A DNA stretch of 64,000 nucleotides from Adineta ricciae (taxonomy: Eukaryota; Rotifera; Eurotatoria; Adinetida; Adinetidae). Below are positions 9,001-58,314 of the stretch, piece after piece (the first letter of the stretch is position 1; each line of letters begins with the position of its first letter). The stretch lies in the NCBI GenBank assembly GCA_905250025.1, contig CAJNOJ010000071.1, forward strand, positions 366,999 through 430,998. The letters run 5' to 3'. The translations under genes and the position numbers were made by a program. The notes below the pieces were generated by a model. That model did not search any database. It was not told the origin of the DNA and was given only the letters and a program-made list of their open reading frames with translations.

Positions 9001-12000
9001 CACGTAAGGATTTCTCGACTTCCTCTGTCCATTGAATTTGACTTGCAGTGATACATGCTTGGCCAGGATGAGATTTCAGCCATTTCTCACGTTTTGTACC
9101 ACAATTTGCTAGATCGTGTCGACATGCGAGCACTTTGCGTTTGACGACTTCTTTCATCTTATTTTCGACATCGCGTAACCATTTCTCGACTTGTCCGTCC
9201 AAGGTAACCTAGGAAAAGTCGATTGGAGATGATTTCGCATAGAAAAGAAGATACTCACTTGACCATCGAATGGAACAATTTCATCTTCGTTTGACTTCAT
9301 TTCTGTTGCTACTTGTGGTCCATCTTTAGACGGTTTCGAAAGAGTTAATGTTTTGATGTTATCGAATAATTTCTTCATATGTGGCATAACTTTTAGTGGT
9401 TCTTTGGAACTACCTAAGATTTCTAACAGATCATCATTAGAAATGAAGTAGAATCGTGGAAATTGTCGACGTTTATTTTCCAAGTACATTTCAAGAGATT
9501 TTTGGATTTCTTCCAAGTTCGTATTCATATATTTTAATTCTTCTTCTACACCTGCTAAATGCGTACCATGAAACGCGTTTGGTTCTAGATTCAATGTTGT
9601 CATAACAACTTTCCATTTTTCATTCACTTCATCGAATAGGGCAGTTTCTTTTGCTAATTGACGACGAATATCTTCACCGTAGAAAATATTCTAAACAAAG
9701 AAAAATTGACGCTGTTGCTTTCGATTTGATAGAGTTTTACTTCGAGATATAGCCATTGTCGTTGAACATTCAACCATAAATCAGTTACTTCGTTTACATG
9801 AGAAATATCACGTTCCCATTTATCAACTACTTTAGCGAATGGTTTGATGAAACGTGATGCTTTAAATGTCGATAACGACATTTGATGTTCTTCAATAGCT
9901 TTGAAGATTTCTTCGGTCGATTTGATCTTAAAATGGCCTAGATGACAGGAAAGGTGTGTTTATTGGTCTTGTTAAGATCTATTTTACCTTTGTCTTTGTA
10001 TGGTACGACTTCAAATTCGACTTTATCCCATTGATCTCGAATTTTCTCGATGCCCCGTTCAATGGCTGCCTCTTTCTGCGCTGCTTCACTAACTTCATTG
10101 ATCAGTTGCGCATTTTCTTCAAAATGCAAGTCGATGATACTTTCCAATGTGAACTCTTCGGATGTTTCATCAAATTCTTTTTGTGATTCTTCTTTAATCT
10201 GTTGCCAATGACGATCTCGCATATCTTTATTATGCAGATCTTTCATCAATGGCATTGTTCGTCGAAATTGATCAACACGATTCTTTGTTGTATCGATGAT
10301 TTCCCAATTCTTCTCACGGTAATCTTTCGATAATTTGTGTAGTTTTCGATATTGTGATTGAGCATAATCTTCCATGACTTGTGTTTGAAGGTTACCGAAT
10401 GTTGTTGATTTCCATTTGTCAAACATTTGATTCCACTCAAGTGCCATGGTCCAGATGCCTTCTAATGCTTCGATCTCTTTTTCGAGGTTGATGATATCTT
10501 TCGATAGTGGATGATCAATGCGAAAGATGCCTAAGCCACGACGAAGTTCTTGTTCTTCTTCTTTCAACTTTGCTAATCGTTGTTTCATTGCATCTAATTG
10601 ACTAAGAGCCTCTTCTGGTGTTGTCGACGACGAGAATGGACCATTGGATTTGAATTCTGTAACAAGTTCCGTGACACTCTTTTTGAATTCTTCGGATTGT
10701 TGTAATAATTTCGATTTGAATTTCTCGCGGAGCTTCTTCAACATCTCTTCACTGTCTGTTAAGCATTGAAGATAAAATTGCCAACGTTCGTCCAGTTGGG
10801 CGAGCATTTGACGAGTCTGTCAAATCCAAACAGTTATACTTTCACTCAGAATTGTACTACAAACGATGACTTACACTATCGGGTACAGGTTTTTCATGTT
10901 TATCAAGTAGAGCAAATCGTTCACGTAACGGTCCAAATTTCGCTTCGTAGACTGGTACTTCTTGTTGTAAAGTTTCCAATAATTTCTGTTTTGCTTCTAA
11001 TCCATAGTGATTTTCCGGTACGACCATCACACTAAACAAAAGATCTTAGTTCGATGAATTCTGCTTGTTTGATCTTCTACTCACCTCGCACTGTTTTCCT
11101 CGATATAATTTGTCAGTTGTTGTAAACTATTCGTTGCTAATTTCAATAGAAGTGCTAAAAACAAGGCATATCATCTATTCAATTCATGCTTTTTTTTTCA
11201 TTCTTACCAGTCAATTTCGCTTGCCATTGCAGACAATGCACAAGTAAAGCATTTTTCAGTGGTGTACAATCAACAAGTACGAATTGAACAGTTGTTAATG
11301 TATCTCGTGATTGAACATTATTTGCTACTTCAGTGTAACGATTGATATCCGCATCAAATATTGATGCATCCGGAGCACTTTCTTCATAACGAATAATGAA
11401 GCGTTCTTTATCGATATCCCATAATTCTCGAACACCATTCCAAGTTGATTGATATTCATCGAGATGTTTTTCATTAGCATCGAGACCAGTAGCGATTTGT
11501 TTCTGAAGATATTGTTTAGGTTCATCTTTATTCAGTAATAAATGAAGAGGCTAAATCAAAGAATTTGTATCTTAGCAAGGATTCTTCTCTAGCTTACTTC
11601 TTCGTGCGTTCTCGCTTTGAGTCGATGAATAAAAGTAATCGCATTGGCAAGTTCGTGTTCACCGATATTATTTACGATACCTTTCAAAGTAGCAATATCT
11701 GGTTTGAAATTGATCTATTTAATGACAGAGATGAAGTCCGATATTTGAAATGAAAAACTATTTACTCGTGATAATGTTGTGTCACCCACAACTTTTGGTT
11801 CGAGAATAATTTCGATCTTGAATAGTGGTCCGGGCGCCGATTTTCCGTCACCAATGATTGCTTTGGACAGTTCTTGCAGAGATGTTTTGAAATTATATCG
11901 AATAGCTCGCTCAAGCCATTTGTCTAATTCAACAACGATGCGATTCCATTCGTGTTGAACATCGGGTGGATCATTTTCGAATAATTTGTGTGTTTCATCA

Positions 12001-15000
12001 ATTTTTTCGAGAATGACATTGAAATATTCTTGAATTTTTTCACTTTGTATTTTCCGAAATTCTCTCTACAATAGAAACAATGAATTTCATTTGATTCCAA
12101 TCGTGGATTCTACTTACCTGATACTCTTCAAATTCTAAATTTTCGAAGATTTTTCGCGAATCGATTTTAACCAAAAGTGTTTCACTTATCTTTTTACATA
12201 ACTTAATACAATCGCGATAAGATTCCTTATATTTATCGACATGTTGATTCAATTCCGATGCACTTATACGACAATCAATCGTATAGTCATGCGTCGGTTT
12301 CAACCATGTGATTTTATTCAAACCAGGTGCTAATTTCTTATCTAATTGTTTAATACGTTCTTTGAAGAGGACACGTTCGTGCGAATCGAGTTTGTCCAGG
12401 ATACGATTATAATCGCGGACGATTAACATAACATTTTCACGTGCGGTACGCAAGTCGTTCTTTCGCGTGAGAATTTCACTTGCATACGATGGAATTTCAA
12501 AACCAAGACGTTCCCAAAACTTGATTTCTTGTAACAGTTTCACCAGTGAGGCATCGAAATTCGCTTGTAGATAACCTTGATCGTTAATACGTTTGATCAA
12601 CGGACATTCGAGCCGTTTCGACGGTTCATTCTCGATATGGTACGACCATTCTTTGTATTGTCGTTGAATGAAATCATCCAATGCTTGTTTCACATATTCA
12701 TACTGTTGACGAATATCAGTTGAAATGCCAACGGTTGGAAGAAAATGTGCCATGTTTAGAAATGACATCATGCGTTCAATTCGTCGTTTTAACGTACGTG
12801 CCCAGAAAGCACTACCGGCATATTGAGGATGAAATCGTTCGAGTGACTGAGGAATCGACGAAGTTGAGATGATTGTTTGAATCGTTTGAAGGACATATTT
12901 GAATATATTGTATAATTCGACAGTCTTCTTATCCACTGTACGACGAATGGCCTACAATGCAGATTCACTTAGTCAACGATGAATCTTGAATGCCGTTATA
13001 CTTACTTCTCTAGTACTTAAATGGGTGAAAACATCGAGAACTTCCACACCTTGTTCGACTGTTCTCACTGCATCGAATGCGTATGTAATAACGTTGGTCA
13101 TTTTCACCCCGAGATCTTTCATTTCGGCCCGAAAACGTTCGTAAACGTCATGCCAAGTGGTTGCTTTAACATTCAGAATGATCGACTGCGATTTTCTCAG
13201 TTCCTGTAAGTTTCTATCGAATGCCACTTCGATATCTGTTAACATTCGATTAATGATTGGACCACGTTGGCCACCAAAGATGGGCAGTTCCGTTCGAGTA
13301 CCTTCTTCCCAACGTGCAAAATGCATTTGACATTCGCAGAGATCAAGTAAATCTCGGCAACGTTGGATGAACGCTTCGATCTGTGCAAATATTGTTGTTT
13401 TATCGAGACGCCACGGTTTAACAGAAAATTTCTCATGAAGATGTTGAGCCTTAAAAGTAAAGACTTTACAGGAAAAAAACAATTTCAGTGGTGTTGACAT
13501 ACATTATTATAAATTTCTTGCCATTGTTGACAACATTCGATACATTCGTTCAATACCTTTTGACTCGATGTGATTTGTCCATCGAAAATTTTATTGAGAT
13601 CAATGGCGACTGTACATCGTCGAATGACTTCATTGCTGAGCTACAAGACAATAATAAATAGTTAGAAGAGAAGAAGATTAGTCGTGCTTTAAGGTTTACC
13701 TTGCGAAAGAGCGCTGTTAGAATTTCCGGTCGATTATAAAATTCTGAATTGACCCAAATAACTCGAATCAACGAAACAATTTTCGGTAGAAGTCTCGGTA
13801 TTTCACTTGGTTTAGCATCAGCTAATTCGTGACATGGATCTTTCAAAGCGATCAAAAACGATAAATTATTATCAGCACGTTTGGTATTCGTCTGTAATTG
13901 TTCAGCTTGCTTAAGAAATTGCGGTAAATATGATGATTTGGCTTTTCGTAAGATTTCAGTTATATGTTTTATAGACGGTTGGTCTAATTGTTGACTAATC
14001 CCCACTAAATCTTGTGTTTGCGCTTTCCAAAATTCAATTTCATCCAATGGTCCACTATCATCACCAAGTGCTGATTGATCTTGAGAATTTGAAGCCTCTT
14101 TCAGTTGTCGACACCAGTAAACCATGGCTGATTCCAGTCGTTGAACTAATTCTTTATCTTTCGCAGCTTGTTCGACAGGAACATTATGACCTTCTTTGGG
14201 AATGTACAATTTCGTTATTCCTTCCATACGCCAACGAATTTCAGTTAATGTTGCAAGAAACCGATGTAGTTGAGAAGCAAAATCATTCTTAATTGAGTCG
14301 GGCCACATCTTATTACCGAAAAATAATGGAGCGTACAGGCCAGACATAACACGAAGAAGTGATGAAAAATGTTTACCACCGAAATTACCATATTGTACAT
14401 CACTAAAAACACGATAGACGAATAGATTGTTGATAGAAATGAAACTTACCGAATAAATTGTTCTTTTTCAGTAATTCGCATCGGTTGATTTTTGATGAAG
14501 TAGACTAAATGTGAGAACGCATTTGTCGGTACACCGTATTCGACACAGAGGCCAAGAACACGATCGATATAAAAGCACATGATACGATTTTCCGAATCAC
14601 TGAGAAATTCGCGAATTTGAGAATGAACTTCTTCCGTCCACATCTCTTCATCCAAACCGGGAAGAGTTACGAGCTTATGAATATATTCCAACTAGGAAAA
14701 CAAATATTCTTCTACTAGATTTTTTCAAGGCAAAGTCAATTTACAATATGATCCGTGCCGGATTTCACATTTGTTGGTTCTTCAGGAATTATTTCATTAT
14801 TTGTTTCGTCCAGTGCTGGCACGGATGGTGATGGCGGTTTCGAATGATTTACAGCTGCCAGTTGCGCGTCACCATTGGTAGTTGCATTAGGTTTTGGTGA
14901 CGCAAGTGCCTTACCCGATGTACGTCGTTCATTGAGCGCAGTTGCTTCACGTACAGATCCTGCTTTACTTCGAACTGATCGAACCGAACGAACTGATCCG

Positions 15001-15104
15001 ATACGTGAGCTGTGTCTCGAAGCATTATCAGCATTTGCTTCCGCTTGTGATTGTGTATCAGTTTTATCACCGTTCACATTAGTAGAACTTGCCTCGTGAT
15101 CCAT
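1..15104 (-). CDS. DNAH2: Axonemal dynein heavy chain, DNAH2-type (3' end beyond window)
   Basis: Motor subunit of an inner-arm axonemal dynein. I can follow 35 exons, about 4,360 residues, from ATG 15,104 to the window edge; only roughly the last 300 residues are missing. Exons, 5' to 3': 14745-15104, 14450-14691, 13700-14402, 13503-13640, 13006-13449, 12118-12951, 11766-12065, 11598-11714, 11208-11550, 11085-11154, 10875-11031, 9988-10816, 9741-9937, 9259-9690, 8676-9208, 8552-8616, 8333-8492, 8050-8279, 7190-7987, 7097-7137, 6882-7035, 5924-6831, 5767-5871, 5432-5706, 4627-5379, 4445-4577, 4079-4218, 3560-4029, 3393-3509, 2720-3338, 2019-2655, 1758-1957, 1581-1707, 1002-1517, below 943. 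Four P-loops are visible: AAA1 GPAGTGKT (8470-8560), AAA2 GCTQSGKT (about 7400), AAA3 GPVGTGKT (about 6230), AAA4 GIGGSGRQ (about 5040). The coiled-coil stalk and microtubule-binding domain lie at 2720-4029. The AAA1 stretch ([20 protein letters not shown]) fits DNAH2 better than other heavy chains. The first 120 residues are Ser/Arg-rich, outside the conserved tail. No frameshift or stop seen. Confidence 0.93.
4219..4444 (-). other. Unusually long dynein intron with AT microsatellite
   Basis: This intron is 226 bases, while most introns here are 43-60. It holds a short (TA)n run near 4270 and stretches with no reading frame that fits the dynein family. Joining the exons on either side gives a continuous AAA4-to-stalk sequence (NDDK then FRPAIAQLF), so no exon seems to be missing. 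Confidence 0.6.
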
Positions 15105-15847
15105 GAGAAGATGGAGACGAGTGAAAAATAATCACAAAGGCGAAAATGAAAATAGAATGCACTTGTTGCAATGTTTGTTTCGAGAAATTTAACGATTGAT
15201 CATTCGAGAGTTTTTCTCTATAGTTACAACTCCATCGTAGATACTTTCAATGGAAATCAAATCAGATGTCGCTCTATGTCAAATATGTCTGACAAAAGCA
15301 ATAGTGTTCGAAATTATCGATCTATACGCATCCAAACATGAAGCAGAAAATGTATCTTAAACAGTTGAATAATGTACGACGTATTCTCACTATCATTATC
15401 ATATTGACAACAGGATCATCTTATTCTGTGAATGATTCTTTCCAATTCACTCATTTCAAATGCTACTCTCATATCGTTATCGTATCTACTTTGAATAAAG
15501 AATACACAGCAGAGGATAATTCAAAATATCACAATCAAATTTTCAACGTTTTATTGAGGAAAAAAAAGACGATGCAAAACACAATTCGAACAAAATTATA
15601 TATTTGCGACCGGGTAAAAGTCATTTTGATTTGAAACTTTGTTGTTAATATTTGTGTCTAGAACATCCTTCTCCTAAGATATATTGTAAACTCATTTCCT
15701 TCCGTAATAAGACGCATGAGTACATCGTAACCGCCGAACCTTGGACTGTCTAAAAGAAACTGTAGCAAAGCAGGAAAGTTCATACGCACATGAACGACGT
15801 TTTGGCATGAGTTCGTTGATAATGAATGATCGAGCCGGAGACCGAAA

Positions 15848-15887
15848 CCTGAGAGAATCGTTTACAGTCTCAAGTTAGGGTCTCAGG
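15848..15887. other. Inverted repeat in a conserved spacer block, copy A
   Basis: CCTGAGA at 15848-15854 pairs with TCTCAGG at 15881-15887 around a 26-base loop. It lies in a stretch of roughly 110 bases that is nearly identical in copy B (24610-24649), although the flanking spacer has drifted. No family recognised. It could be a structured RNA or a protein site. Confidence 0.35.
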
Positions 15888-18800
15888 GTCAATACATCAC
15901 ATTATTTCACAATTTGATCTAAAAGAAAACAAGTAAAGGATGATTTGGGTCCATATCGATGATTATATACATATACATATACATAAGAAATAAATATCTT
16001 ATTTTTTCTCTATTAAGAAAACTGAATGCGTCGCAAGGGTAATAGCGGAGTCGAGCAACTGGCTGCGTGAAAAAACAGAACATAATAGAGCGGGGAAGAA
16101 AAGCGACATGACTATGGTTTTTTTGCTTTCCTTTCCATCACAGAGGTATTCTAGCTTTCTCGTTTCTGTCGATGTTTTTTGGTGTGTTGTTGTCAATTCT
16201 TTTTTTCTACACATACTCGAACGAGTCAGTTTTCTCTTTCACACTTACTTGAAAAGTTAGTACTTGGAAAAACCAAGCGCCAAAAAGAAACGACTAACGT
16301 TCATTTCATTAGTTATCTTTGTTGTTTATTGATTTTTCTTTTCAAGAGAAATAATTATGCTGGCGATGAAAGTCAATTCAATATCAAATGTTTTGTTTAG
16401 GAAAAGAAAAAGAAAAAGAAAAAGAAATGTTAGAAATCGGAGATTGAAAGAATAAAATATGAAAGAAGTAACAAATCGAGTAAACGAGAGAAGAATGTTA
16501 TACCTGGATGGAAGGAAAGATTTTAATTGCATGAGATATTTTTACTCTTCATCATTTAAATTAAGAATACAGTTGAGATAACAACATAAGGATGAACACT
16601 TTAGATATTTGAAAGAATTAATAGCTGCTTATGAATAATGATAAAATCTAAACTTAGCGATGAACACGAGTGCACAGAGATGTCGATAGGATATTTAATA
16701 AGTATAACTTCTGTGTATGTGTGTGCTTCTGTGTTAGAAGTATCAACTATTCATCGTCTCATATGTTTTCTGTCGTAGTATTTTCTCTTTTTTTTCTCTC
16801 TCGATCCTGGGTGACATAAAAACGTCTAAACTAGATTTTCATTATTATCATCTTGTTTTCTTCTTTCTTTTTTTTCTTTCCAAGCGAAAAAATAAGAAGG
16901 AAAAGGAAGAAAAAGAAGAAAAATATTCTGATCAAGTGCCTTTCTTTTTTCTTGCACAATGTTTTGGTGTATTCGCATCTCTCAACTAGATGACGTCAAT
17001 GAGGAGAAAAGCAGTGAGACTTATAGATACAAAATCTTTCCTTTTTTCCATGTAGAAAATAGCGTGTTTACCGCAAGAAAAGAGAAAAAAGAAGTCGACT
17101 TGTCAAAATGAGAACACTGTGTTTGAAGGAAAATATCTAGACATTTCTATAGAAATCATCTGGTCGGACGGCTGATTCTTTATATAATAGCGCGCTGTTA
17201 CATTCGGTAGAGAAAGACAAACAAACAGGAATAGAAACATCAGCGACGTCTACAAGAACTTTGCTCTTTACCAGTACCAAAATGTTTTCCTTTTCGGCAA
17301 AAGCAGGATATAACCCCATGATAATTCGGGCCAAGAAAAAGTACCGAAGTGCAACACATCTATCGTTCTAATACCAGATGTGCGCGAAAACATACCGAGT
17401 TTTATGCCCCAATTTGTACAGACTGACACCCGATTCCTCGTTTACCGTTATATACAAGAAATACATATATCTCATGGTTTGCTCTTTACTAACATATGGA
17501 GTGTGAAAAAGAAACTATGTCAAACTAAAGTGACCAAATTTTACTGGTTCTAGTTAAAACGACTACAAATGAAAATTGAATGGAACAGGTTTATGGTATT
17601 GTCATGGTACTTTCTGAAGAATCACAGCGAAGTCTATAGCTTTTTCTTTTTATTATTCCCCAACAAAAAGATGGTCTAATATATCCTGAAAGTAATGAGC
17701 GAGAGACAAGGTTAATGTTATGTTCATCGTAAATACTTCATGACTGCTATATCTCGAGCTTCTAAATAAAATTCGATACCTAATTGCTTATTTGCATAGT
17801 ATTCAACGCATCTTGCCGCTGAATCAAGTTTCAGAGATGATTGTATGTCGTTTCATCTGACTGCCGATTCAATCTAAAAACTAGTTTTCGTGTACGACTG
17901 AGTTTTAAACATTAACTTATGTCTCTCAACTGGAAATTATATTCTCGGGGATGCTATAGGTCACCCTTAGGGCGAAATTAAACGGCAGCTTTTTTAATAA
18001 CTCTCGCTGATATCCAAGGTAAAGACAGTTTCTTACTCATACTTACTAATGTACGAATGTAGTCAGTCGCTTGAAACAGTTCACATCGATTAATGACAGA
18101 TGAAAGAAATGATATCATTTACCTTTTTTCATTTCATGTATATAAACTATCTGATGTAAAGTGAAAATAATTTATGTAAGCATCGTTGAAGTAGCTGTCA
18201 TCCATGAAAAAACCTATTGATAACGACTAGCGAGAATAGAATAGACGGACGAGTCTATAAAATACTTTGTCTCTCACTTCTTTTGTCCTTTTTTCATCTT
18301 CGATGGCCCCTTCATATTCTTTTCTGATTTTTCTCTTTCTTCGCTTGTTGTTCTTACTACTAGTTGCTCTTTATCGTTTGGACGAGCAAGAAAAGAGGAG
18401 AAACGAGACGAATATTAACGTACTGTCAACCAATAGAAGACAACCAGCTGATGTATAATCAAAAGCAATTGGTTGATTTTGTTTTATTTTTCTGTAGGAT
18501 ACATACAAAACAACACAGTGTATGTACAACTATTAATGAAAAAAAAACTCAGATGATTAAGGCTATAGGAGAGGAAAAGAAAGCGGGAGGAAAATGGGAG
18601 GTATGCGAATAAATTTACTTATCCAAAATACACGCGAATGATTAGGAAAGATTTTATGCTTTCGAAATTATAATTGAGTATATTACTTTAGTGCGACCTT
18701 AGAGATATGATTGTTTTCGTTATCTACGAATCGGCAATGCAGAAACAACTCTTTGATGAACAGAAGTTTGATATCCTGGCCAAGTCTCCTATGCATGGTA

Positions 18801-20617
18801 CATGCAGCGAACTTGTTCGAAAAGTTACTCTCTGGGTTTTCCTTAAATATACACGGTTCATCAAGAAAAGTTCCTTCAACGCATGGTTGAGTTAGAGTTT
18901 TGTCTACTTGCTATTGATCAGCTTCGAGGCTAAGAGAAAGAAACTGATCTTAGACTCAACCTCATTTGTTTCGCAACGGATTTAACTGCTTCATGAGCTA
19001 GGATAACTTTTACGTGCAGTTCTCAAAGTGGTCCCTAATCATTAATAGTCAAAATGCATAATCGATTCTCCCATAAACTGAAAGTGGAAATTACGGTCAG
19101 CTGTTTGAGAACTCGTCGAATATCAGATGAAATCTTTAACTTACTCCTAAGTGCAGTGAGTATTTTGATTTCGATCATTCGTCCTACTTTAAAAGCATCC
19201 GTTATAGTTTGCTTTATACATGTATATCGTCTCTTTCTCCTAAATATATTTATGATGCATGTTTTATATGACCTAAGTGCCTTTTTTCCATTTGACACTT
19301 TACTTTTACTCGATTACTGTATAATGAAATCTAGTCTAGATATTCTAATGCAAAGTACTTTTTTTTGTTATTTTTTCTTCAAATTGAATCAATATGAATG
19401 TTAGACGAAAGATGAGAGGATGTCGATGGCGACCGTATGTAAAACACCTGACAAAAGTAAGCATCATTTCGAAGTGAAGAAAAGGAAAAAAATACGTCGA
19501 AACATACAGGGTTTATTTGTCTGTGCCGCTATTTACCAAATGAAAAGGGTGCACTTAAAGATAAAGGTATCATCAGCTGTTTCTTTCTTCGATATCTGTT
19601 CCCTATATCAATTATAATGATAATATTTCAATAGAAATAAATAATTAGGAAAAGTCGTTTTCATTAACAGTAGTCATCAAAGAAGCAAAACTAGGGAAAT
19701 GGAAACGTTATTTCGGAACAAAATTCATGACACGACTATTGACTCTTTACTTACATTGATTGATGTCGACAAGTCGGTATTCTGTTCTATTTCTCAGGTC
19801 ATAGATGCTAACGATGGTTGCTAAATGCTCTAAGTGTTGCATCAACGAATGTTTTCGAACTCCAGACGTAACTGTCGTTAGGTTGTACCAAACAGCAGAA
19901 TAGAACGACTAACTGCTGATTGTGTTCTGCCACAGTGCAAAGAGCTTCTCTGTCTTTTTCGATGCCTTTATATTCCCAGCAACAACGAACCCCCTCCTTT
20001 TCCTTTTTTTTCTTTCCCTCCCGCTCTCTCTTTTTCTACCCGGGCTGTTGTTTTAGCCGTCGATAAAAAAGAAAGAAAATATTTTTGCTTCGATATGTAA
20101 CTTGGTTGTTTTTGTCTGTTTGCTTCTTTTTTCTCTCGTTTTTTTTTCTTTTTCTTAGTTATATGTGTATTTTTCTCTCCTCCACTATGAAAAAAAAAAC
20201 ATTTTTTTCTTGACACAACGTCCATAGGACCCTAGGCCCACTCCTGACGAGGACGATTCGCGATTTAATCATGTTTGCTCTTTTTATATTATTTCTCTTC
20301 GCATTTTTTGCTTTCTCGCATCATCAATTGTATTATTACAGAAAAACATATGTTCGGCCGTACATATATGAAAAAATGAAGTAGCCAGCTTCCAACGTTT
20401 TCTCTTTAGTTGGACGCAAATTAGCAAAAAAATAACAAGCTATAAATATACTTATATGGTTTTCTTTTCTCCCTCTCTCCTTCGTCTGATGACCATTAAT
20501 AAATATCGAATTAATTCGACATTCTCTGACTTCATGATTGAATATTGTTGCTTTCTTTTTTACATAAATCGTGATAAAAAGAAAAAAAAATCGAGCGTCT
20601 CGCTTGCTTTTTTATTG

Positions 20618-20633
20618 CGTCGCTCCGGCGACG
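20618..20633. other. UNCG-tetraloop hairpin downstream of co-Smad A
   Basis: CGTCGC-TCCG-GCGACG forms a 6 bp stem with a UCCG loop (plus-strand sense). The copy B counterpart at 29449-29464 keeps the stem and has a TTCG loop. Both loops belong to the stable UNCG class. It lies about 200 bases beyond the co-Smad stop codon, in poly-T-rich sequence. Confidence 0.35.
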
Positions 20634-20824
20634 TTGTCTACAATAAAAATATCTTCGTTTTGCGGTAAATCATAGAAAAAGAAAAAAAATCGAGCGCACA
20701 GCTGCGCGCAACATATGTTTTTTTTTCTTTCTTTTTGTTTTCTTCACATACACTCACACTCAACCATTAGTTTCAGCATAGAGAGCATCAAAAAAAAGCA
20801 CACAAACATCCACTTTTTATCTCA

Positions 20825-22187
20825 TCAACTAGACGTAGTTGCTTGTTCTGGTTGGAGTTGTTGTAAACGAGTGTCAATAAGACGTAATGGTTCATTGATC
20901 AGAATTGATAACCAACAAGGCGTTGAAGTTATCTCTCGTTGACCGTATTCGAAACCCCAACCGAATTTAAAACTAACTTGAATCGCACATAATTTCGTTG
21001 AATCAAGGATTGTTTCATAAGTTGCCAATGGATCATGAATAAGTTGAGTGAAAATTGAGGCGTTGAAAATCGAATGAATTGATTGCCGAGGTGGTAGATG
21101 ATTAACTGTCGAATCATTCCAACCATTCAAACGATTGTACAACACCGATTGAACAAATACCGAACATGACCAAGACCGATTTCGAATTGATACATCACCG
21201 TTCGCATGTTCGATCAATTCAATACCTAAGAAATAAACGAATCTAAGTAAACATGTCTGAATAAATCAATGAAATAACTGGTATACCTCTACCGATATTC
21301 GCTCGAACAAGTTCTACACCTTTCTGTCGTTTAACATTTTCTAGCAATCCTAAACTAAATCGGTTTGTGAAATTTCGATATGGTGAAGTATATCCATCGA
21401 CAAAGATTCGCGGTGATGCTGCTCGAAATTGTTCGCCGACTTTATTACTATGTTCGTAGTAATTTATCGTGCACCATGAAGAGAGCATAGGTTGATTACT
21501 CCATTGTGGTGAATCTAAATTTGTGTCATGAGATCTTTGTTTCCAAGAAAGTCTTGTTCAAAATAACTTACAAGGATCAGGTGAATACGTCGAAGGTGGT
21601 GGTGTCGGCGGTGCATTTTCGTTGTTAATTCTCGGTTCAATAATCGATGGCAAAACTATCAAAGCATCGAGATAAAATTTTCAACGAGTCTTTTTTCTTG
21701 GCTCTTACCTTGTGATGGTACCCGATCATAATGATAGGGATTGATACATACATGTTTTTGATTTCGATTATTTCCCGAAGAAAAGGGATACCGACATTGA
21801 GGTGATGGAACTAATTCATGATAATTCTGTAGATCAGCAAAGCGCCATAAACGACAATAGACCACATGTGGAAATTCTTTTCGATAGACAATCTGTATAC
21901 GTTTATCAACAGATGGTGGAATTGTTATACATGGACTTGGAACATAAGGATTTAATAAAACTTTTGCTAAAGAATCAAGTACACCTATGATATGAAAGGA
22001 AGGAATTTTCGTGATTATACGAGAGAAGAGAATGAAACGTTTTACCGTCGGAATTTTTCAGTTTTTTTATAAGAAAATCAACAGCACGTTGACTGTGATC
22101 ATTGTCTTCATGGCCTTGTTTCCAATTGACGATTTTCGAACGTAGAACATGGAGATTGAAAGATTTTCGATCATGATAATCATCCAT
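20825..22187 (-). CDS. SMAD4: SMAD4-like co-Smad, copy A
   Basis: Common-mediator Smad, which in other animals pairs with phosphorylated R-Smads and enters the nucleus. Five exons (22046-22187, 21709-21984, 21572-21655, 21287-21514, 20825-21225) give 376 residues, much shorter than vertebrate SMAD4 (about 550) because the linker is only some 45 residues. The MH1 domain (residues 15-140) keeps the four zinc ligands (Cys of CITIP, Cys of QCRYPF, Cys and His of CINPYH) and the DNA-contact hairpin residues Arg, Gln and Lys (KRIQ, YRKEFPHV). The MH2 domain starts at SSWCTINYYE. The form GIELIEHANGDV matches SMAD4 (GDVW) rather than R-Smads, and VFVQS follows. The L3 loop is altered: FKFGWG where others have FVKGWG. 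The end, EQATTSS, is not an R-Smad SSXS tail. Start chosen as the first ATG giving an MH1 domain. Confidence 0.85.
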
Positions 22188-22658
22188 ATTTGCTTGTTGT
22201 TTTCGACTAATCGATAATACGTTATGTCTGTGGTATGTCAGAGCGATTGCGGAATTGCTTGGTTGCTAAACGATTATATACATTCTGATCATGTGAAAAG
22301 GAGAAAACAATTGTTTTCTTCTCCGTATAGCGAATCAATGTCTAATGCTTCCAACAGAGAAAGAGGAGAAGCGAAGAGAGAGAAAGACAAGTGTGTGAAC
22401 GAACGAGACGAGTCGCAATTAATAATAATTATTCTGCTCGTTTGTCTGATAAATCGCTTCTTATTGAAAGAGGGAGCGGCACACTTATTTCCATACATCA
22501 TCAAAGTAAAACAGCAACAACTTAACTCAGATATCGAACTACTTAAGGAAACAATTGAACGAACAAAAGTGACAAGTTCAAAAGACATCTGTTTTGCATA
22601 GTATCATGGATTTATTTTGTTTTGTTCAGCTAAAAAATTGCATTCAAGAATACATCAT
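22188..22658. other. Highly conserved block upstream of co-Smad A, open on both strands
   Basis: About 420 bases from 22,240 differ from copy B by only three substitutions and one indel, fewer than the coding rows I compared. A plus-strand frame at 22,224-22,601 (125 codons) has a hydrophobic stretch (IIIILLVCLINRFLL) and a charged, helical-looking end. A 99-codon frame on the other strand is also open. Two of the substitutions change an amino acid in the plus frame, so protein-level constraint is not shown. It could be the co-Smad promoter/5'UTR, a small divergent gene, or simply a young part of the duplication. No homologue recognised. Confidence 0.4.
22303..22318. promoter_or_regulatory. 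16-base perfect palindrome upstream of co-Smad A
   Basis: GAAAACAATTGTTTTC is perfectly self-complementary around CAATTG, about 115 bases before the co-Smad ATG. It is present unchanged in copy B at 31135-31150. It may be a dimeric transcription-factor site; no factor is assigned. Confidence 0.3.
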
Positions 22659-22659
22659 N
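22659..22659. other. Ambiguous base (N) at the repeat junction
   Basis: This is the only N I noticed in the window. Sequence to its left ends exactly where copy B ends at 31,491 (...ACATCAT). Sequence to its right resumes inside dynein exon 3 (compare 13,911). It therefore looks like a contig join or an unresolved junction. Confidence 0.9.
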
Positions 22660-23857
22660 TAGTTTAAGAAACTGCGGTAAATATGATGATTTGGCTTTTC
22701 GTAAGATTTCAGTTATATGTTTTATAGACGGTTGGTCTAATTGTTGACTAATCCCCACTAAATCTTGTGTTCGTGCTTTCCAAAATTCAATTTCTTCCAG
22801 TGGTCCACTATCATCACTAAGTGCTGATTGATCTTGAGAATTTGAAACATCTTTCAATTGTCGACACCAATGAACCATGGCTGATTCCAGTCGTTGAACT
22901 AATTCTTTATCTTTTGCAGCTTGTTCGACAGGAATATCATGACCTTCTTTGGGAATGTACAATTTTGTTATTCCTTCCATACGCCAACGAATATCAGTTA
23001 ATGTTGCAAGAAATCGATGTAGTTGAGAAGCAAAATCGTTCTTAATTGAATCGGGCCACATCTTATTACCGAAAAATAATGGAGCATACAAGCCAGACAT
23101 AACACGAAGAAGCGATGAAAAATGTTTACCACCGAAATTTCCATATTGTACATCACTAAAAACACGATAGACGAATATATTGTTGATAGAAATGAAACTT
23201 ACCGAATAAATTGTTCTTTTTCAGTAATTCGCATCGGTTGATTTTTGATAAAATAGACTAAATGTGAGAACGCATTTGTCGGTACACCGTATTCGACACA
23301 GAGGCCAAGAACACGATCGATATAAAAGCACATGATACGATTTTCTGAATCACTGAGAAATTCACGAATTTGTGAATGAACTTCTTCCGTCCACATCTCT
23401 TCATCCAAACCGGGAAGAGTTACGACCTTATGAATATATTCCAACTAGAAAAACAAATATTCTTCTACTAGATTTTTTCAAGGCAAAGTCAATTTACAAT
23501 ATGTTCCGTGCCGGATTTCACATTTATTGGTTCTTCAGGAATTATTTCACCATTTGTTTCATCCATTGCTGGCACGGATGGTGATGGCGGTTTCGAATGA
23601 TTTACAGTTGCCAGTTGCGCGTCACCATTGGCAGTTGTATTGGGTTTTGGTGACGCAACTGCCTTCCCCGATGTACGTCGTTCATTGAGCGCAGTTGCTT
23701 CACGTACAGATCCTGCTTTACTTCGAACTGAACGGACCGAACGAACTGATCCGATACGTGAGCTGTGTCTCGAAGCATTATCAGCATTTGCTTCCGCTTG
23801 TGATTGTGTATCAGTTTTATCACCGTTCACATTAGTAGAACTCGCCTCGTGATCCAT
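22660..23857 (-). pseudogene. Truncated 5' fragment of the DNAH2 gene (copy B)
   Basis: Repeats dynein exon 1 (23498-23857), exon 2 (23203-23444) and most of exon 3 (about 22660-23155), then stops at the N. Frames and splice sites are intact; the N-terminal protein differs from the full copy at several percent of residues. Examples are GHDIPVEQ for GHNVPVEQ and SALSDDSG for SALGDDSG. As assembled it could encode only the N-terminal tail (about 360 residues) with no motor. If the join is an assembly artefact, this is the start of a second, complete allele rather than a pseudogene. Confidence 0.85.
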
Positions 23858-26800
23858 GAAAAGATGAATACGAGTGAAAAATTATCACAAAGGCGAAGTT
23901 GAAAATGAAAATAGAATGCACTTGTTGCAATGTTTGTTTCGAAAAATTTAACGATTGATCATTCGAGAGTTTTTCTCTATAGTTACAACTCCATCGTAGA
24001 TACTTTCAATGGAAATCAAATCAGATGTCGCTCTATGTCAAATATGATTAACAAAAACAATACTATTCGAAATTTGCGATCAACACGCATCCAAACATTG
24101 GGCAGAAAAAGTATTTTAAACAGTTGAATAATGTACGACGTATTCTCACTATCATTATCATATTGACAACAGGATCGTCTTATTCCGCGAATAATTCTTT
24201 TCCAATTCACTCATTTCAAATGCTACTCTCATATCGTTATCGTATCTACTTTGAATAAAGAATACACAGTAGATAATAATTCCAAATATAACACTCAACT
24301 TTTCAACATTTTATTGGAGAAAAAAACAAGACGATGCAAAACACAATTCGAACAAAATTATATATTTGCGATCGGGTAAAAGCCATTTTGATTCGCAACT
24401 TTGTTGTTAATATTTGTGTCTAGAACATCCTTCTCCTCAGATATTTTGTGAACGCATTTCCTTCCGTAATAAGGCGCATGGGTACATCGTAACCACCGAA
24501 CCTTGTGCTTTCTAAAAGAAATCGTAGCAAAGCAGACAAGTTCATACGCACACGAACGATGTTTTGGCATGAATTCATTGATAATGAATGATCGAGCCGG
24601 AGACCGAAACCTGAGAGAATCGTTTACAGTCTCAAGTTAGGGTCTCAGGGTCAATACATCACATTATTTCACAATTTGATCTAAAAGAAAACAAGTAAAA
24701 GATGACTTGGGTCCATATCGATGATTATATACATATACATAGGAAATAAATATCTTATTTTTTCTCTATTAAGAAAACTGAATGCGTCGCAAGGGTAATA
24801 GCGGAGTCGAGCAACTGGCTGCGTGAAAAAAAAACAGAACATAATAGAGCGGGGAAGAAAAGCGACATGACTATGGTTTTTTTGCTTTCCTTTCCATCAC
24901 AGAGGTATTCAAGCTTTCTCGTTTCTGCCGATGTTTTTTGGTGTGTTGTTGTCAATTCTTTTTTCTACACATACTCGAACGAGTCAGTTTTCTCTTTCAC
25001 ACTTACTTGAAAAGTTAGTACTTGGAAAAACCAAGCGCCAAAAAGAAACGACTAGCGTTCATTTCATTAGTTATCTTTATTGTTTATTGATTTTTCTTTT
25101 CAAGTGAAATAATTATGCTGGGCGATGAAAGTCAATTCACTATAAAATGTTTTGTTTAGGAAAAGAAAAAGAAATGTTAGAAATCGGAGATTGAAAGAGT
25201 GAATATATGAAAGAAGTAACAAATCGAGTAGATGAGAGAAAAATGTTATACCTGGATGGAAAGAAAGATTTTAATTGCATGGGATATTTTTACTCTTCAT
25301 CATTTAAATTAAGAATAGAGTTGAAATAACAACATAAGGATGAATACTTTAGATATTTGAAAGAATTAATAGCTGCTTATGAATAATGATACAATCTAAA
25401 CTTAGCGATGAACAGGAGTGCACAGAGATGTCAATAGGATATTTAATAAGTATAACCTCTGTGTATGTGCGTGCTTCTGTGTTAGAAGTATCAACTATTC
25501 ATCGTCTCATATGTTTTCTGTCGTAGTATTTTCTCTGTTTTTTTCTCTCGCGATCCTGGGTGATATAAAAACGTCTAAACTAGATTTTCATTATTATCAT
25601 CTTGTTTTCTTCTTTCTTCTTTTTCTTTCCAAGCGAAAAGAAGGAAAAGGAAGAAAAAGAAGAAAAAAATATTCTGATCAAGTGCCTTTCTTTTTTCTTA
25701 CACAATGTTTTGGTGTATTCGCATCTCTCAACTAGATGACGTCAATGAGGAGAAAAGCAGTGAGACCTACAGATGCAAAATCTTTCTTTTTTTTTTTCAT
25801 GTAGAAAATAGCGCGTTTACCGCAAGAAAAGAGAAAAAAAGAAGTCGACTTGTCAAAATGAGAACGCTGTGTTTGAAGGAAAATATCTAGACACTTCTAT
25901 AGAAATCATCTGGTCGGACGGCTGATTCTTTATATAATAGCGCGTTGTTACATTCGGTAGAGAAAGACAAACAAACAGGAATAGACGCATCAGCGACGTC
26001 TACAAGAACTTTGCTCTTTACCAGTACCACAATGTTTTCCTTTTCGGCAAAAGCAGAATATAACTCGATGATAATTCGGGCGAAGAAAAAGTACCGAAGT
26101 GCAACACATCTATCATTCTTATACCAGATGTGCGCGAAAACATCCTGAGTTCTATGCCCTAATTTGTACAGACTGACACCCGATTCTTCGTTTACCGTTA
26201 TATACAAGAAATGCATATATCCCATGGTTTGCCCTTTGCAAACATATGGAGTGTGGAAAAGAAACTATGTCAAACTAAAGTGACTAAATTTAGCTGGTTC
26301 TTGTCAAAACGACTACAAACAAAAAAGTGAATGGAGGAGGTTTATGATATTATCATGTTACTTTCCGAAGAATAGCAGCAAAGTCTATAAATTTTTCTTT
26401 TTATTAATCCAGAACAAAAAGATGGTCTAATATATCCTGAAAGTAATGAGCGAGAGGCAAGGTTAATGTTATGTTCTTCGCTCACCCTCAAGCCGGACTT
26501 CTGCTCATCATAAATACTTCGTGGTTGTTATATCTCGAGCTTCTAAATAAAACTCGATACCTAATTGCTTATTTGCACAGTATTCAACGCATCTTGCCGT
26601 TGAATCAAATTTCAGAGATGATTGCATGTTGTTTCATCTGACTGCTTATTCAAACTAAAAGCAAGTTTTCGCGTACGACTGAAGTTTAAACATTAACTTA
26701 TATCTCTCAACTGAAAATCATATTCTCGGAAATGCTATAATTCACTCTTAGAGCGAAACTAAACAGCAGCCTTTCTAATAATAACTCTCGATGATATCCA

Positions 26801-29656
26801 AGGTAAAGACAGTTTCTTACTCACGCTTACTAATGTACGAATGTAGTCAGTCGCTTGAAACAGTTCACATCGATTAATGACAGATGAAAGAAATGATATT
26901 ATTTACCTTTTTTCATTTCATGTATATAAACTATCTGATGTAAAGTGAAAATAATTTATGTAAGCATCGTTAAAGTAGCTGTCATCCATGAAAAAACCTA
27001 TTGATAACGACTAGCGAGAATAGATTCGACGGACGAGTCTATAAAATACTTTGTCTCTCACTTCTTTTGTCTCTTTTTCATCTTCTATGGCCCCTTCATA
27101 TTCTTCTCTGATTTTTCTCTTTCTTCTCTTGTTGTTCTTACTACTAGTTGCTCTTTATCGTTTGGACGAGCAAGAAAAGAGGAGAAACGAGACGAATATT
27201 AACGTACTGTCAACCAATAGAAGACAACCAGCTGATGTATAATCAAAAGCAATTGGTTGATTTTGTTTTATTTTTCTGTAGAATACATACAAAACAACGC
27301 AGTGTATGTACAACTATTAATGAAAAAAAAAAACTCAGATGATTAAGGCAGTAGGAGAGGAAAAGAAAAGGGGAAGAAAATGGGAGGTATGCGAATAAAT
27401 TTACTTATCCAAAATACACGCGAATGATTAGGAAAAATTTTATCCTTTCGCAATTATAATTGAGTATATTACGTGTTATAATATACCTAAATTCAAAGAT
27501 GACTCTGATCTCTTTTATGAAAATACTTGAGTAGCTCGTCTCTACTACGACCTTAGAGATATGATTGTTTTTGTTATCTGTAAATCGGCAATGCAGAAAC
27601 AACTATTTGGTGGACAAATGCTTGATACTCTGAACAAGTCTCCTATGCATGGTATATGCAGTGAACTTGTTCGAAAAGTTACTATCTTGGTTTTCCTTAA
27701 ATATACACGGTTCATCAAGAAAAATTCCTTCAACGCATGGTCAAGTTAGAGTGTTTTTCTACTTGTCATAGGTCAGCTTTGAGACTAAGAGAAAAAAACC
27801 GATCTTTGGGAGTAGTGCATTGGTCTTACACTGAACTTCGTTTGTTTCGCAACGAATTGAACTGCTTCGTGGGTTAGGATATCAAAATGTATAATCGATT
27901 CTACCATAAAATGAAAGTGGAAATTACGATTAGCTGTTCGAAAACTCGTCGAATATCCGATTAAATCTTTCACTTACTCCTGAACGCAGTGAGTATTTCG
28001 ATCATTCGTCCTAATTTAAAAACATCCGTTATGGTTTGCTTTATACATGTATATCATCTCTTTCTCCTAAATATATCTATGATGTATGTTTTATATGACC
28101 TAAGTGCCTTTTTTCCATTTGACACTTTACTTTTACTCGATTACTGTATAATAAAATCCAGTCTAGATATTCTAATGCAAAGTATATTTTTTTGTTTTTT
28201 TTTTCAAATTGAATCAATATGAGTGTTAGACGAAAGATGAGAGGATGTCGATGGCGACCGTATGTAAAACACCTGACAAAAACAAGCATCATTTCGAACT
28301 GAAGAAAAGGAAAAAAAATACGTCGAAACACATAGGGTTTATTTGTCTGTGCCGCTATTTACCAAATGAAAAGGGTGCACTTAAAGATAAAGGTATCATC
28401 AGCTGTTTCTTTCTTCTATATCTGTTCCCTATATCAATTATAATGATTATATTTCGATAGAAATAAATAATTAGAAAAAGTCGTTTTCATTAAGAAGAGT
28501 ACTCATCAAAGAAGCAAAACTAGGGAAATGGAAACGTTATTTTGGAACAAAATTCATGACACGATTATTGACTTTTTACTTACATTGATTGATGTCGACA
28601 AGTCGATCTTTTATTCTATTTCTCAGATCATAGATAGTAACGATGGCTGTTAAATGCTCTAGGTGTTGCATCAACGAATGTTTTCGAACTCCAGATGTAA
28701 CTGTCGTTAGGTTGTACCAAAAGGCAGAATAGAACGACTAACTGCTGATTGTGTTCTGCCACAGTGCAAAGAGCTTCTCTGTCTTTTTCGATGCCTTTAT
28801 ATTCCCAGCACCCAGCAACAACGAACCCCCTCCTTTTCCTTTTTTTTTCTTTCCCTCCCGCTCTCTCTCTTTTTCTACCCGGGCTGCTGTTTTAGCCGTC
28901 GATAAAAAAAAGAAAGAAAATATTTTTGCTTCGATATGTAACTTGGTTGTTTTCGTCTGTTTGCTTCTTTTTTCTCTCGTTTTTTCTTCTTAGTTATATG
29001 TGTATTTTTCTCTCCTCCGCTATGAAAAAAAAACATTTTTTTCTTGACACAACGTCCATAGGACTCTAGACCCACTCCTGACGAGAACGATTCGCGATTT
29101 AATCATGTTTGCTTTTTTATATTATTTCTCTTCGCATTTTTTGCTTTCTCCCGTCATCAATTGCATTATTACAGAAAAACATATGTTCGGTCATACATAT
29201 ATGAAAAACGAAGTAGCCAGTTTCCAACTTCTTCCTCTTCACTTGGACGCAAATAAGCAAAAAAATAACAAGCTATAAATATACATATATGGTTTTCTTT
29301 TCTCCCTCTTTCCTTCGTCTGATGACCATTAATAAATATCGAATTAATTCGACATTCTCTGACTCCATGATTGAATAGTGTTGCTTTTTTTTTACATAAA
29401 TCGTGATAAAAAGAAAAAAAATCGAGCGTCTCGTTTGCTTCTCTATTGCGTCGCTTCGGCGACGTTGTCTACAATAAAAATATCTTCATTTTGCGGTAAA
29501 TGATAGAAAAAGAAAAAAAAATCGAGCACACAGCTGCGCGCAACATATGTTTTTTTTTTCTTTCTTTATGTTTTCTTCACATACACTCACACTCAACCAT
29601 TAATTTCAGCATAGAGAGCAGCAAAAAAAGCACACAGTCATCCACATTTTGTCTCA
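23858..29656. other. Spacer between co-Smad B and the dynein fragment
   Basis: Copy B of the 5.7 kb spacer at 15,105-20,824. No gene found. Indels against copy A and broken counterparts of its open frames argue against coding. It contains the second copies of the CCTGAGA inverted repeat (24610-24649) and of the UNCG hairpin (29449-29464). Confidence 0.6.
29449..29464. other. UNCG-tetraloop hairpin downstream of co-Smad B
   Basis: CGTCGC-TTCG-GCGACG: same stem as at 20618-20633, with a UUCG loop instead of UCCG, so the only change preserves the tetraloop class. Confidence 0.35.
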
Positions 29657-31019
29657 TCAACTAGACGTAGTTGCTTGTTCTGGCTGGAGTTGTTGTAAAC
29701 GAGTGTCAATAAGACGTAATGGTTCGTTGATCAGAATTGATAACCAACATGGTGTTGAAGTTATCTCTCGTTGACCGTATTCAAAACCCCAACCGAATTT
29801 AAAACTAACTTGAATCGCACATAATTTTGTTGAGTCAAGGATTGTTTCGTAAGTTGCCAATGGATCATGAATAAGTTGAGCGAAAATTGAGGCGTTGAAA
29901 ATCGAATGAATTGATTGACGAGGTGGTAAATGATTAACTGTCGAATCATTCCAACCATTTAAACGATTGTACAACACCGATTGAACAAATACCGAACATG
30001 ACCAAGAACGATTTCGAATTGATACATCACCGTTCTCATGTTCGATCAATTCAATACCTGAGAAATAAACGAATCCAAGTAAATATATCTGAATAAATTA
30101 ATGAAATATTTGCCATACCTCGACCAATATTCGCTCGAACATGTTCTACACCTTTCTGTCGTTTAACATTTTCTAGCAATCCTAAACTAAATCGATTTGT
30201 GAAATTTCGATATGGTGAGGTATATCCATCGACAAAGATTCGCGGTGACGCTGCTCGAAATTGTTCGCCAACTTTATTACTATGTTCGTAGTAATTTATC
30301 GTGCACCATGAAGATAGAGTAGGTTGATTACTCCATTGTGGTGAATCTAAATTTATGTCATGAGATCTTCGTTTCCAAGAAAGTCTTGTTCGAAATAACT
30401 TACAAGGGTCAGGTGAATACATCGAAGGTGGTGGCGTCGGTGGTGCATTTTCGTTGTTAATTCTCGGTTCAATAATTGATGGCAGAACTACAATAGATTC
30501 AAGATAAAATTTTGAACCATTCGTTTTCGTTGGCTCTTACCTTGTGATGGTACCCGATCATAATGATAGGGATTGATACATACATGTTTTTGATTTCGAT
30601 TATGTCCCGAAGAAAATGGATATCGGCATTGAGGTGATGGAACTAATTCATGATAGTTCTGTAGATCAGCAAAACGCCATAAACGACAATAGACCACATG
30701 TGGAAATTCTTTTCGATAGACGATCTGTATACGTTTATCAACAGATGGTGGAATTGTTATACATGGACTTGGAGCATAAGGATTTAATAAAACTTTTGCT
30801 AAAGAATCAAGTACACCTATGATATGAAGAGAAGCAATTTTTGTGATTGTACGATAGAAGAGAATAAAACGCTTTACCGTCGGAATTTTTTAGTTTTTTA
30901 ATAAGAAAATCAACAGCACGTTGACTGTGATCGTTGTCTTCATGACCTTGTTTCCAATTGACAATTTTTGAACGTAGAACATGAAGATTGAAAGATTTTC
31001 GTTCATGATAATCATCCAT
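29657..31019 (-). CDS. SMAD4: SMAD4-like co-Smad, copy B
   Basis: Second copy of the co-Smad, with the same five exons and exon lengths (30878-31019, 30541-30816, 30404-30487, 30119-30346, 29657-30057) and 376 residues. Differences from copy A are scattered single residues, for instance DDYHE for DDYHD, SSGHNRN for SSGNNRN, VEHVRA for VELVRA, HENGDV for HANGDV and IFAQ for IFTQ. The zinc ligands, the hairpin Arg/Gln/Lys and the FKFGWG loop are all unchanged, so both copies look functional. They are either allelic versions of one gene or recent tandem paralogues. Confidence 0.85.
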
Positions 31020-31491
31020 ATTTGCTTGTTGTTTTCGACTAATCGGTAATACGTTACGTCTGTGGTATGTCAGAGCGATTGCGGAATTGCTTGGTTGCTA
31101 AACGATTATATACATTCTGATCATGTGAAAAGGAGAAAACAATTGTTTTCTTCTCCGTATAGCGAATCAATGTCTATTGCTTCCAACAGAGAAAGAGGAG
31201 AAGCGAAGAGAGAGAAAGACAAGTGTGTGAACGAACGAGACGAGTCGCAATTAATAATAATTATTCTGTTCGTTTGTCTGATAAATCGCTTCTTATTGAA
31301 AGAGGGAGCGGCACACTTATTTCCATACATCATCAAAGTAAAACAGCAACAACTTAACTCAGATATCGAACTACTTAAGGAAACAATTGAACGAACAAAA
31401 GTGACAAGTTCAAAAGACATCTGTTTTGCATAGTATCATGGATTTATTTTGTTTTGTTCAGCTAAAAAAATTGCATTCGAGAATACATCAT
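31020..31491. other. Conserved block upstream of co-Smad B
   Basis: Counterpart of 22,188-22,658. The plus-strand frame is again open (31,062-31,433, 123 codons) and so is the opposite strand (31,121-31,420). It carries the same 16-base palindrome at 31135-31150. After 31,491 the sequence is unique, with nothing recognised until the exon at 31,601-31,915. Confidence 0.4.
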
Positions 31492-31600
31492 ACAGGAGAA
31501 ATCCATTGGACTAGAAAATACAAAGAACAGACAATCACTATTTAATCGAGTTGCACAAAAAAAAGTACGAAGAAAAAAGGTTTTTGTCCTATGTTCTATA

Positions 31601-31915
31601 CTAAACTAGATGATGGTTGTGATGCTGAATATGGCGTAAATGTGGATTCGGACGTGTGTGTTCACTTAAATGTTCTTGATGTACCAAATCAAGAGGTGGT
31701 GCGCTTGGTTTTGGATGATGTAAATCCATACGTGGCGGTGGAATTTTAGGTGGCGGTTGAGTTGGACGTTTCATTTGTTCATTTCTCGCTTGATTGAATC
31801 CAACATCCAAAGTTTCCGTACTAGCCATCGGAGCATCACAAAAAACACTTCCCAAACGACGATTGCCATGTTCCGGTGTTGCTAATGGTGCTGGTCGACG
31901 AAGACGCTGACCGGT
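31601..31915 (-). CDS. Alternative last exon of the receptor: proline-rich tail
   Basis: An open exon of 105 codons preceded by a good acceptor (CTTAG at 31,916-31,920, minus sense). It encodes a Pro/His-rich intracellular-type sequence with PPPKIPPP and SAPPL motifs, possible SH3/WW ligands. Splicing from the GT after HNE (exon end 32,247) keeps phase 0 and replaces the last nine residues of the short form. It could instead be the last exon of another gene, but no other upstream exon is seen. Confidence 0.5.
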   Translation of the reverse strand, partial: TGQRLRRPAPLATPEHGNRRLGSVFCDAPMASTETLDVGFNQARNEQMKRPTQPPPKIPPPRMDLHHPKPSAPPLDLVHQEHLSEHTRPNPHLRHIQHHNHHLV

Positions 31916-34884: not shown

Positions 34885-35162
34885 TCGGGATGGATGTGAA
34901 GAAAAGAGAAGAGAACGCGCAGAGCACAGACAAAAATGAGTGAGCGATTTTAATTCGACAATGAATCAACCAATCGAAATCATTTGTTTTGAATTAGATT
35001 CTGAAATAAAAATAAAAATAATCAATGAAATATTTTTTCAATAAATTAACATTTTGTTATTTTTTATCCATTATGATTTATTCTTCTGGTTTTTGTCACC
35101 ATGGTACAAACATTATCAATGGTGATTTTCATTGCGATTAGCTTTGTTCTTGTTCATTCGAA
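34885..35162. promoter_or_regulatory. Divergent promoter region, receptor / CFAP99
   Basis: A 278-base AT-rich gap between the receptor ATG (minus) and the CFAP99 ATG (plus). Both promoters or 5' ends must lie here. No specific element recognised. Confidence 0.45.
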
Positions 35163-37628: not shown

Positions 37629-37763
37629 TAAACTTCCTTCTTTTTCTTGTAATTCAATGTTAACAAATATATTTTTTCTAACGTAAACTATATCGATGAA
37701 TGCATATGTGTTATTTTGTTCTGTTCTGTTCTTGCAAGTATGAAGAAAAAAAATATCGACTAC

Positions 37764-37837
37764 CACCTCTGGTGGGGATCGAACCCACGATCTTTGGATT
37801 AGAAGTCCAACGCGTTAATCCGCTTCGCCACAGAGGC
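37764..37837 (-). tRNA. tRNA-Arg (anticodon UCU)
   Basis: Minus strand. The acceptor stem is GCCTCTG/CAGAGGT (first pair G-U), with a D arm GGCGAAGCGGATTAACGC, anticodon stem-loop TTGGACTTCTAATCCAA, and a T arm with GGTTCGATCC. Anticodon TCT is at 37801-37803 (AGA on the plus strand). No intron. It lies between the ends of CFAP99 and the tubulin gene. Confidence 0.95.
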
Positions 37838-37910
37838 TTCGAGAAAGCTTTCACAAATGTTCGTTGTAAACATAAATTTTTTTTCTTCAAAGGTTCATCA
37901 CTGAAACTAC

Positions 37911-52578: not shown

Positions 52579-54222
<1,644 letters not shown>

Positions 54223-56525: not shown

Positions 56526-58314
<1,789 letters not shown>

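Follow-up and report, generated by a model that had tools for sequence, protein, structure and literature searches.

Introduction

When the genome of a heterozygous diploid is assembled, the two alleles of a locus can come to stand side by side, an error termed false haplotype (or heterotype) duplication. In bdelloid rotifers, the linkage of homologous genes on one scaffold has also been taken as a sign of long-term ameiotic evolution (PMC5916493). That study reports two tandem cases of linked homologous blocks in Adineta ricciae, alongside 25 blocks (2 tandem and 23 palindromes) for A. vaga in 2013, and its authors suspected scaffolding errors behind some of the collinearity breaks at Ns. Here, we describe a 64 kb stretch of the A. 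ricciae genome (C71:366999-430998, called the window below), which forms the end of the 430,998-bp scaffold C71 (CAJNOJ010000071.1) in an assembly of 130.5 Mb and 1033 contigs. Within it, two copies of a direct repeat, A and B, each holding the start of a dynein heavy chain gene, a miR-125-like hairpin and a Smad gene, follow one another head to tail. A and B are almost certainly two alleles that were mis-scaffolded in tandem, with the homologous scaffold, C215, left with a gap in their place, and we therefore treat the locus as a false haplotype duplication.

The locus shares with other false haplotype duplications the adjacency of the alleles, a divergence that equals heterozygosity, a gap at the join and one gene truncated there. 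It departs from them in that the second allele has been removed from its own scaffold, where an N was left, so that the total copy number is right whilst the placement is wrong. As in the linked homologous blocks of bdelloids, homologous gene copies lie on one scaffold, but unlike in the account of those blocks (PMC5916493), the homologous scaffold with its reciprocal gap could be identified here, which points directly to an error.

Structure of the repeat and its junction

BLASTN of the window against itself returned the direct repeat (13911-22658 and 22664-31491) as four pieces of 88.0-94.2% identity, and a global alignment of copy A (13907-22658) with copy B (22660-31491) gave 94.8% identity with gaps excluded (8212 identical columns, 453 mismatches and 41 gap events). 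These analyses bear out the head-to-tail repeat with a single-N junction proposed in the initial annotation, which had placed the copies a few percent apart; they do differ slightly, but the figure is better given as about 5%, counting substitutions only. Copy A runs on from the left flank and is read as the allele of one homologue, and copy B runs on into the right flank and is read as the allele of the other. Between them stands the N at 22659 (C71:389657), the only non-ACGT base in the window (GC content 35.5%), adjoined on its left by the last base of A and on its right by the first base of B; we read it as the scaffold join of two contigs from different haplotypes. A join of the copies on an assembly gap is what a false haplotype duplication should show, whereas a real tandem duplication calls for unbroken sequence over the junction, where the N lies instead. 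No further direct repeat of comparable size was found in the final 214 kb of C71.

The junction also cuts a gene. Coding exons 1-3 of the dynein heavy chain gene (13688-15104, minus strand) reach into copy A, and the gene extends to the left, with a Pfam match to DHC_N1 (8e-40) on 13553-14467 and matches to AAA_7/8/9 farther left. Exon 3 lies at about 13688-14410 in our splice model, and in copy B, where the dynein exons occupy 22660-23857 (minus strand), this exon is truncated at 22660, next to the N; the frames are open and show no frameshift relative to A. The position of the cut within exon 3 thus agrees with the first description of the locus, as does the correspondence of the end of A to the end of B at 31491.

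The last 300 columns of the A/B alignment are 99% identical. Over the last 450 columns (about 22210-22658 and the stretch of B ending at 31491), which lie upstream of the Smad start, identity is 98.7%, against 94.8% overall. Either promoter constraint or contig ends that mix haplotypes could account for the high identity at the ends of the copies.

The homologous scaffold

The left flank together with the first 75 bp of A (3206-13981) is allelic to C215:18000-28776, at 95.75% identity over 10,780 columns, and the first 71 bases of A counted from 13911 were found identical at C215:28706-28776. A single N follows at C215:28777. Beyond it, from C215:28778 on, the scaffold is allelic to the right flank (32150-41144) at 94.7-94.9% identity (95.1% without gaps), and the match that begins at 32150 continues through the remainder of the 20 kb of C215 compared. 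As both flanks are collinear and about 95% identical, C215 is the other homologue of the region, and its N stands exactly where the repeat is missing.

Long queries against the genome (23 of 25 first-look candidates scored in one search and 7 of 9 in another) failed to list C215 despite this identity of about 95%, the unscored candidates presumably being the long matches, so copy A and the right junction were searched again as shorter pieces. Searches with A in three pieces and with the whole repeat pair found no other copies in the genome beyond the 71-bp end on C215 and short matches of 71-92% on C48, the search with the pair having scored 3 of its 4 first-look candidates and not listed the self-match. 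With the exception of its first 75 bp, then, C215 carries no extra allele of the repeat. The focal Smad protein, used as a query against the genome, likewise recovered A and B, with 88-99% identity for each exon, whilst the best matches on C215 reached 33-48% (at most 44%, or 48% over a short stretch). Left flank, repeat and right flank are thus each present twice in the assembly, as expected of a diploid, but both repeats lie on C71.

The end of A corresponds to 31491 and the right part of C215 starts at 32150, which leaves a gap of 658 bp, and the left part of C215 reaches 75 bp beyond the start of B, which gives an overlap of 75 bp. If the partners are swapped, four contigs tile two complete haplotypes with only this one gap and this one overlap. 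The 658-bp piece (31492-32149) was found on C71 alone: no match exceeded 13 bp in the compared 20 kb of C215, and none elsewhere in the genome in a search with 30800-33200. We read it as having been left unassembled on the other haplotype.

The following course of events would produce this arrangement. The animal would be diploid at the locus, with homologues about 5% apart, and four contigs would have been assembled, of which the left flank with A and the right part of C215 would derive from one homologue and the left part of C215 and B with the right flank from the other. The scaffolder would then have joined the left flank and A to B and the right flank, and the left part of C215 to its right part, with one N per join, so that both alleles stand in tandem on one scaffold and neither on its homologue. 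The true joins would probably be left flank and A with the right part of C215, and the left part of C215 with B and the right flank; each haplotype would then read dynein, Smad, next gene. The initial annotation had suspected the end-to-end scaffolding of two contigs from different haplotypes, and the haplotype mis-join stands, but as an exchange of partners between two scaffolds rather than the retention of one redundant contig. It had also looked to read depth for a sign of the artefact; since both homologues were assembled separately, the depth over A and B would not be half that of the flanks.

Divergence of the copies

If A and B are alleles, they should be as far apart as the alleles that flank them. 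Synonymous (Ks) and nonsynonymous (Ka) divergence was estimated by the Nei-Gojobori method, with the splice limits of the Smad and dynein exons taken from our own model. Between A and B, Ks was 0.165 ± 0.028 for the Smad gene (377 codons, the stop being counted in the length and not in the estimate; Ka/Ks 0.06) and 0.116 ± 0.023 for dynein exons 1-3 (358 codons; Ka/Ks 0.20). Between C71 and C215, nine long minus-strand frames across the dynein span gave 0.141 ± 0.011 (2008 codons; Ka/Ks 0.08), three of these frames being named dynein by Pfam, with one in-frame stop skipped and some intron sequence possibly included. The remainder of dynein exon 3 gave 0.133 (73 codons) and two right-flank frames gave 0.123 (370 codons) and 0.104 (146 codons). 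Pooled, Ks was 0.141 for A/B and 0.136 for the C71/C215 flanks (z 0.24). The nucleotide identities agree, at 94.8% between the copies and 95.8% and 95.1% in the flanks, so that the divergence of the copies equals the local allelic divergence. Published mean Ks values for A. ricciae are 0.135-0.14 between homologues and 1.27 between ohnologues (PMC5916493).

These values bear upon the possibility that an ordinary tandem duplication arose on one chromosome and aged to 5% divergence, C215 being simply incomplete. The geometry of the repeat, taken alone, permits such an event. However, it would require the A/B divergence to equal the allelic divergence by chance, and C215, where a gap lies instead, should then hold the duplicate's alleles. 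In addition, the dynein start of B would lack the rest of its gene. A headless start from a duplication this old would probably have drifted towards a Ka/Ks of 1, and decay of the truncated copy, whilst not strictly defining of a real tandem duplication, is expected of one; instead, this start has stayed open with a Ka/Ks of 0.20, and there was no frameshift or stop in the compared coding exons of either copy. That the dynein start of B is intact, even though no gene would go with it, counts for its being an allele. Given the coincidence of divergence, the intact dynein start, the gap on C215 and the position of the junction on the window's only N, we rejected ordinary tandem duplication, which we regard as very improbable. 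The A/B pair is an ordinary assembly error and not a new gene duplication.

The genome also contains ohnologous scaffolds, C48 being one example, and A and B could in principle be ohnologues (old whole-genome duplicates) that were scaffolded together. The stretch C48:176000-205999 is collinear with the region and likely its ohnologue, but its matches are short and of about 65-93% identity. Its contents include the gene to which the right-flank frame 33606-34784 belongs, at 54% protein identity, two Smads at 32-52% and four short conserved pieces of the repeat in one copy each; neither the two dynein exon frames nor a close copy of the focal Smad was found in these 30 kb. C48 thus shows the conserved pieces of the repeat once and not twice, and says little about the genes. 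With C48 far too diverged, and with A and B much too close to one another (Ks 0.14, compared with the ohnologue value of about 1.27 given in PMC5916493), an ohnologous origin was rejected and is in our view practically out of the question.

Single-N junctions in the assembly

Support for the mis-scaffolding of two alleles also comes from how single Ns are used in this assembly. The sample, comprising the window and loci L001-L043, contained single Ns at six junctions and a longer gap of 18 N, and a direct repeat adjoins the N at five of the six, the A/B junction at C71:389657 included. At C71:309913 and C48:176866, exact direct repeats of 192 bp and 195 bp, respectively, stand on both sides of the N and represent unmerged contig overlaps. 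At C110:226849, 160 bp were compared to the right of the N, at 98.8% identity, with the partner beginning 202 bp to its left, and at C71:313475 a 369-bp repeat of 96% adjoins the N on the left only, its partner being 3.7 kb away. The sixth, C215:28777, has no adjoining repeat and is the reciprocal gap described above. The 18-N run had no adjoining direct repeat of this kind. For comparison, 300 random points were taken on C71, each with 10 kb free of Ns around it, and none adjoined a direct repeat of at least 100 bp; the word length of megablast in this control was greater than that used for the junctions, and the points are not independent. Although the sample is small, it suggests that contigs with overlapping but unmerged ends were joined at the single Ns of this assembly.

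Presumably, the single N follows the SSPACE convention for a negative gap estimate. No printed statement of this convention was found in the accessible parts of the sources, PMC8110574 among them. The 2018 assembly of A. ricciae (GCA_900240375.1), for which PacBio data were used, was made with SSPACE and SSPACE-LongRead (PMC5916493), and section 17 of PMC7943196 does not state the scaffolder for this species.

The surroundings of the N at C71:313475 (C71:313106-317571) present another doubtful join, with tandem repeats at about 314324-314752 in a 10-kb stretch with a GC content of 30.7%.

Contig ends and a possible reciprocal exchange

Several observations weigh against the mis-scaffolding of two alleles. 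In the 75-bp overlap, the left part of C215 matches A throughout but has three mismatches to B, all among the first 13 positions of B, although it is B with which it should be continuous. The final 221 bp of this part are identical to C71, whereas the preceding 1000 columns hold 65 differences. As its end is identical to C71 and matches A over B, the contig ends are not clean haplotype sequence; they probably sit where the haplotypes are hard to distinguish, as is expected for assemblies of this type. The constraint on the dynein start is also somewhat weaker between A and B than further along the gene (Ka/Ks 0.20 against 0.08), and a large share of the rise comes from the exon 1 frame, with 11 nonsynonymous and 6 synonymous codon changes. 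Moreover, our evidence comes from the assembled sequence. Lastly, a duplication on one homologue combined with a deletion on the other also fits, in part, a reciprocal unequal exchange.

Such an exchange between homologues, with both products kept in an asexual or clonal lineage and with A and B as former alleles, is the main biological alternative left, on the further assumption that both of its junctions have become Ns, and we give this combination a slim chance. It agrees with the copy numbers, two repeats on C71 and none on C215, and it too predicts that the A/B divergence should equal the allelic divergence. In detail, one chromosome would bear a tandem of the Smad gene, the miR-125-like gene and the dynein start and the other a deletion that cuts the dynein, a configuration that is likewise improbable. 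A deletion from a reciprocal exchange should be the exact complement of the duplication, but on C215 the limits of the missing stretch are displaced, by 75 bp at one end and by 658 bp at the other, and lie at the N; 658 bp are missing whilst 75 bp are doubled. Both junctions fall exactly on Ns, neither being crossed by assembled sequence, and single Ns elsewhere mark unmerged overlaps. We therefore consider an exchange with both products retained to be unlikely.

The mis-scaffolding of two alleles, by comparison, draws together the absence of the repeat from C215 at its own N, the equality of A/B and allelic divergence and the behaviour of the other single Ns, and so the haplotype origin first suspected for this locus is supported. 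The locus shows that a scaffold join can produce an apparent linkage of homologues. A cheap test for such cases is to check the homologous scaffold for a reciprocal gap and the single Ns for adjoining repeats. Gene order needs correction, as do counts of genes such as Smads, dyneins and microRNAs in which A and B figure as two loci.

Genes of the repeat and its surroundings

The Smad genes of copy A (20825-22187, minus strand) and copy B (29657-31019, minus strand) have an identical five-exon layout in our model, are intact and encode 376 amino acids, with Pfam matches to MH2 noted for copy A. A stop in the copy A frame near 21560 was considered as a defect and rejected, as it falls in a short intron of the splice model with a GTAAGT donor and a TTTAG acceptor. 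The initial annotation had labelled this gene a co-Smad. The label is doubtful, since the matches to Smad5 MH1 (4e-43) and Smad2 MH2 (2.4e-41) are stronger than the best match to Smad4 (6e-27, in two stretches); by match scores, the protein is closer to Smad1/2/3/5 than to Smad4, as an R-Smad and not a co-Smad should be. Its C-terminus reads TTSS. Judged from its sequence, the focal Smad looks like a divergent R-Smad.

Two more Smad genes lie in the window at about 52879-53837 and 56911-58138 (plus strand), roughly 22-27 kb to the right of the copy B Smad. In the protein search, each has one match set on C71 and one on C215, with their order kept, whereas the focal Smad is found twice on C71. 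These neighbours also have counterparts on C48, and at least three diverged Smads thus lie close together.

Each copy of the repeat further contains a miR-125-like hairpin on the minus strand, at 15821-15892 in A (72 nt, fold z -4.2) and, identical to it, at 24583-24654 in B. An ohnologue of the hairpin lies at C48:185260-185331 (fold z -4.8) and is 91.7% conserved. The 5' arm holds an exact 18-mer, CCCUGAGACCCUAACUUG, which we take to be that of miR-125b. The hairpin was absent from both Rfam scans, one at the gathering level and one at E<=1 on 15300-20800. With as many as 2 mismatches allowed, no let-7 or miR-100 motif was found in the window or in the C48 and C215 stretches, and there was one weak match of miR-100/10 type far upstream on C71. 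The accessible part of PMC12256650 does not name miR-125 in A. ricciae.

A telomere-type pattern, TGTGGG, gave 28 overlapping matches on six contigs; the control was the same repeat in another phase, and nothing was concluded from it. Several long frames between 43.6 and 51.3 kb of the window are without Pfam matches, and the frame 50171-51283 (minus strand) has a weak match to the VPS13 N-terminal region (7e-16) that falls under the curated cut-off. A tRNA-Arg gene (anticodon tct) at 37764-37837 (minus strand) is the sole tRNA of the window and its sole Rfam match at the gathering level.

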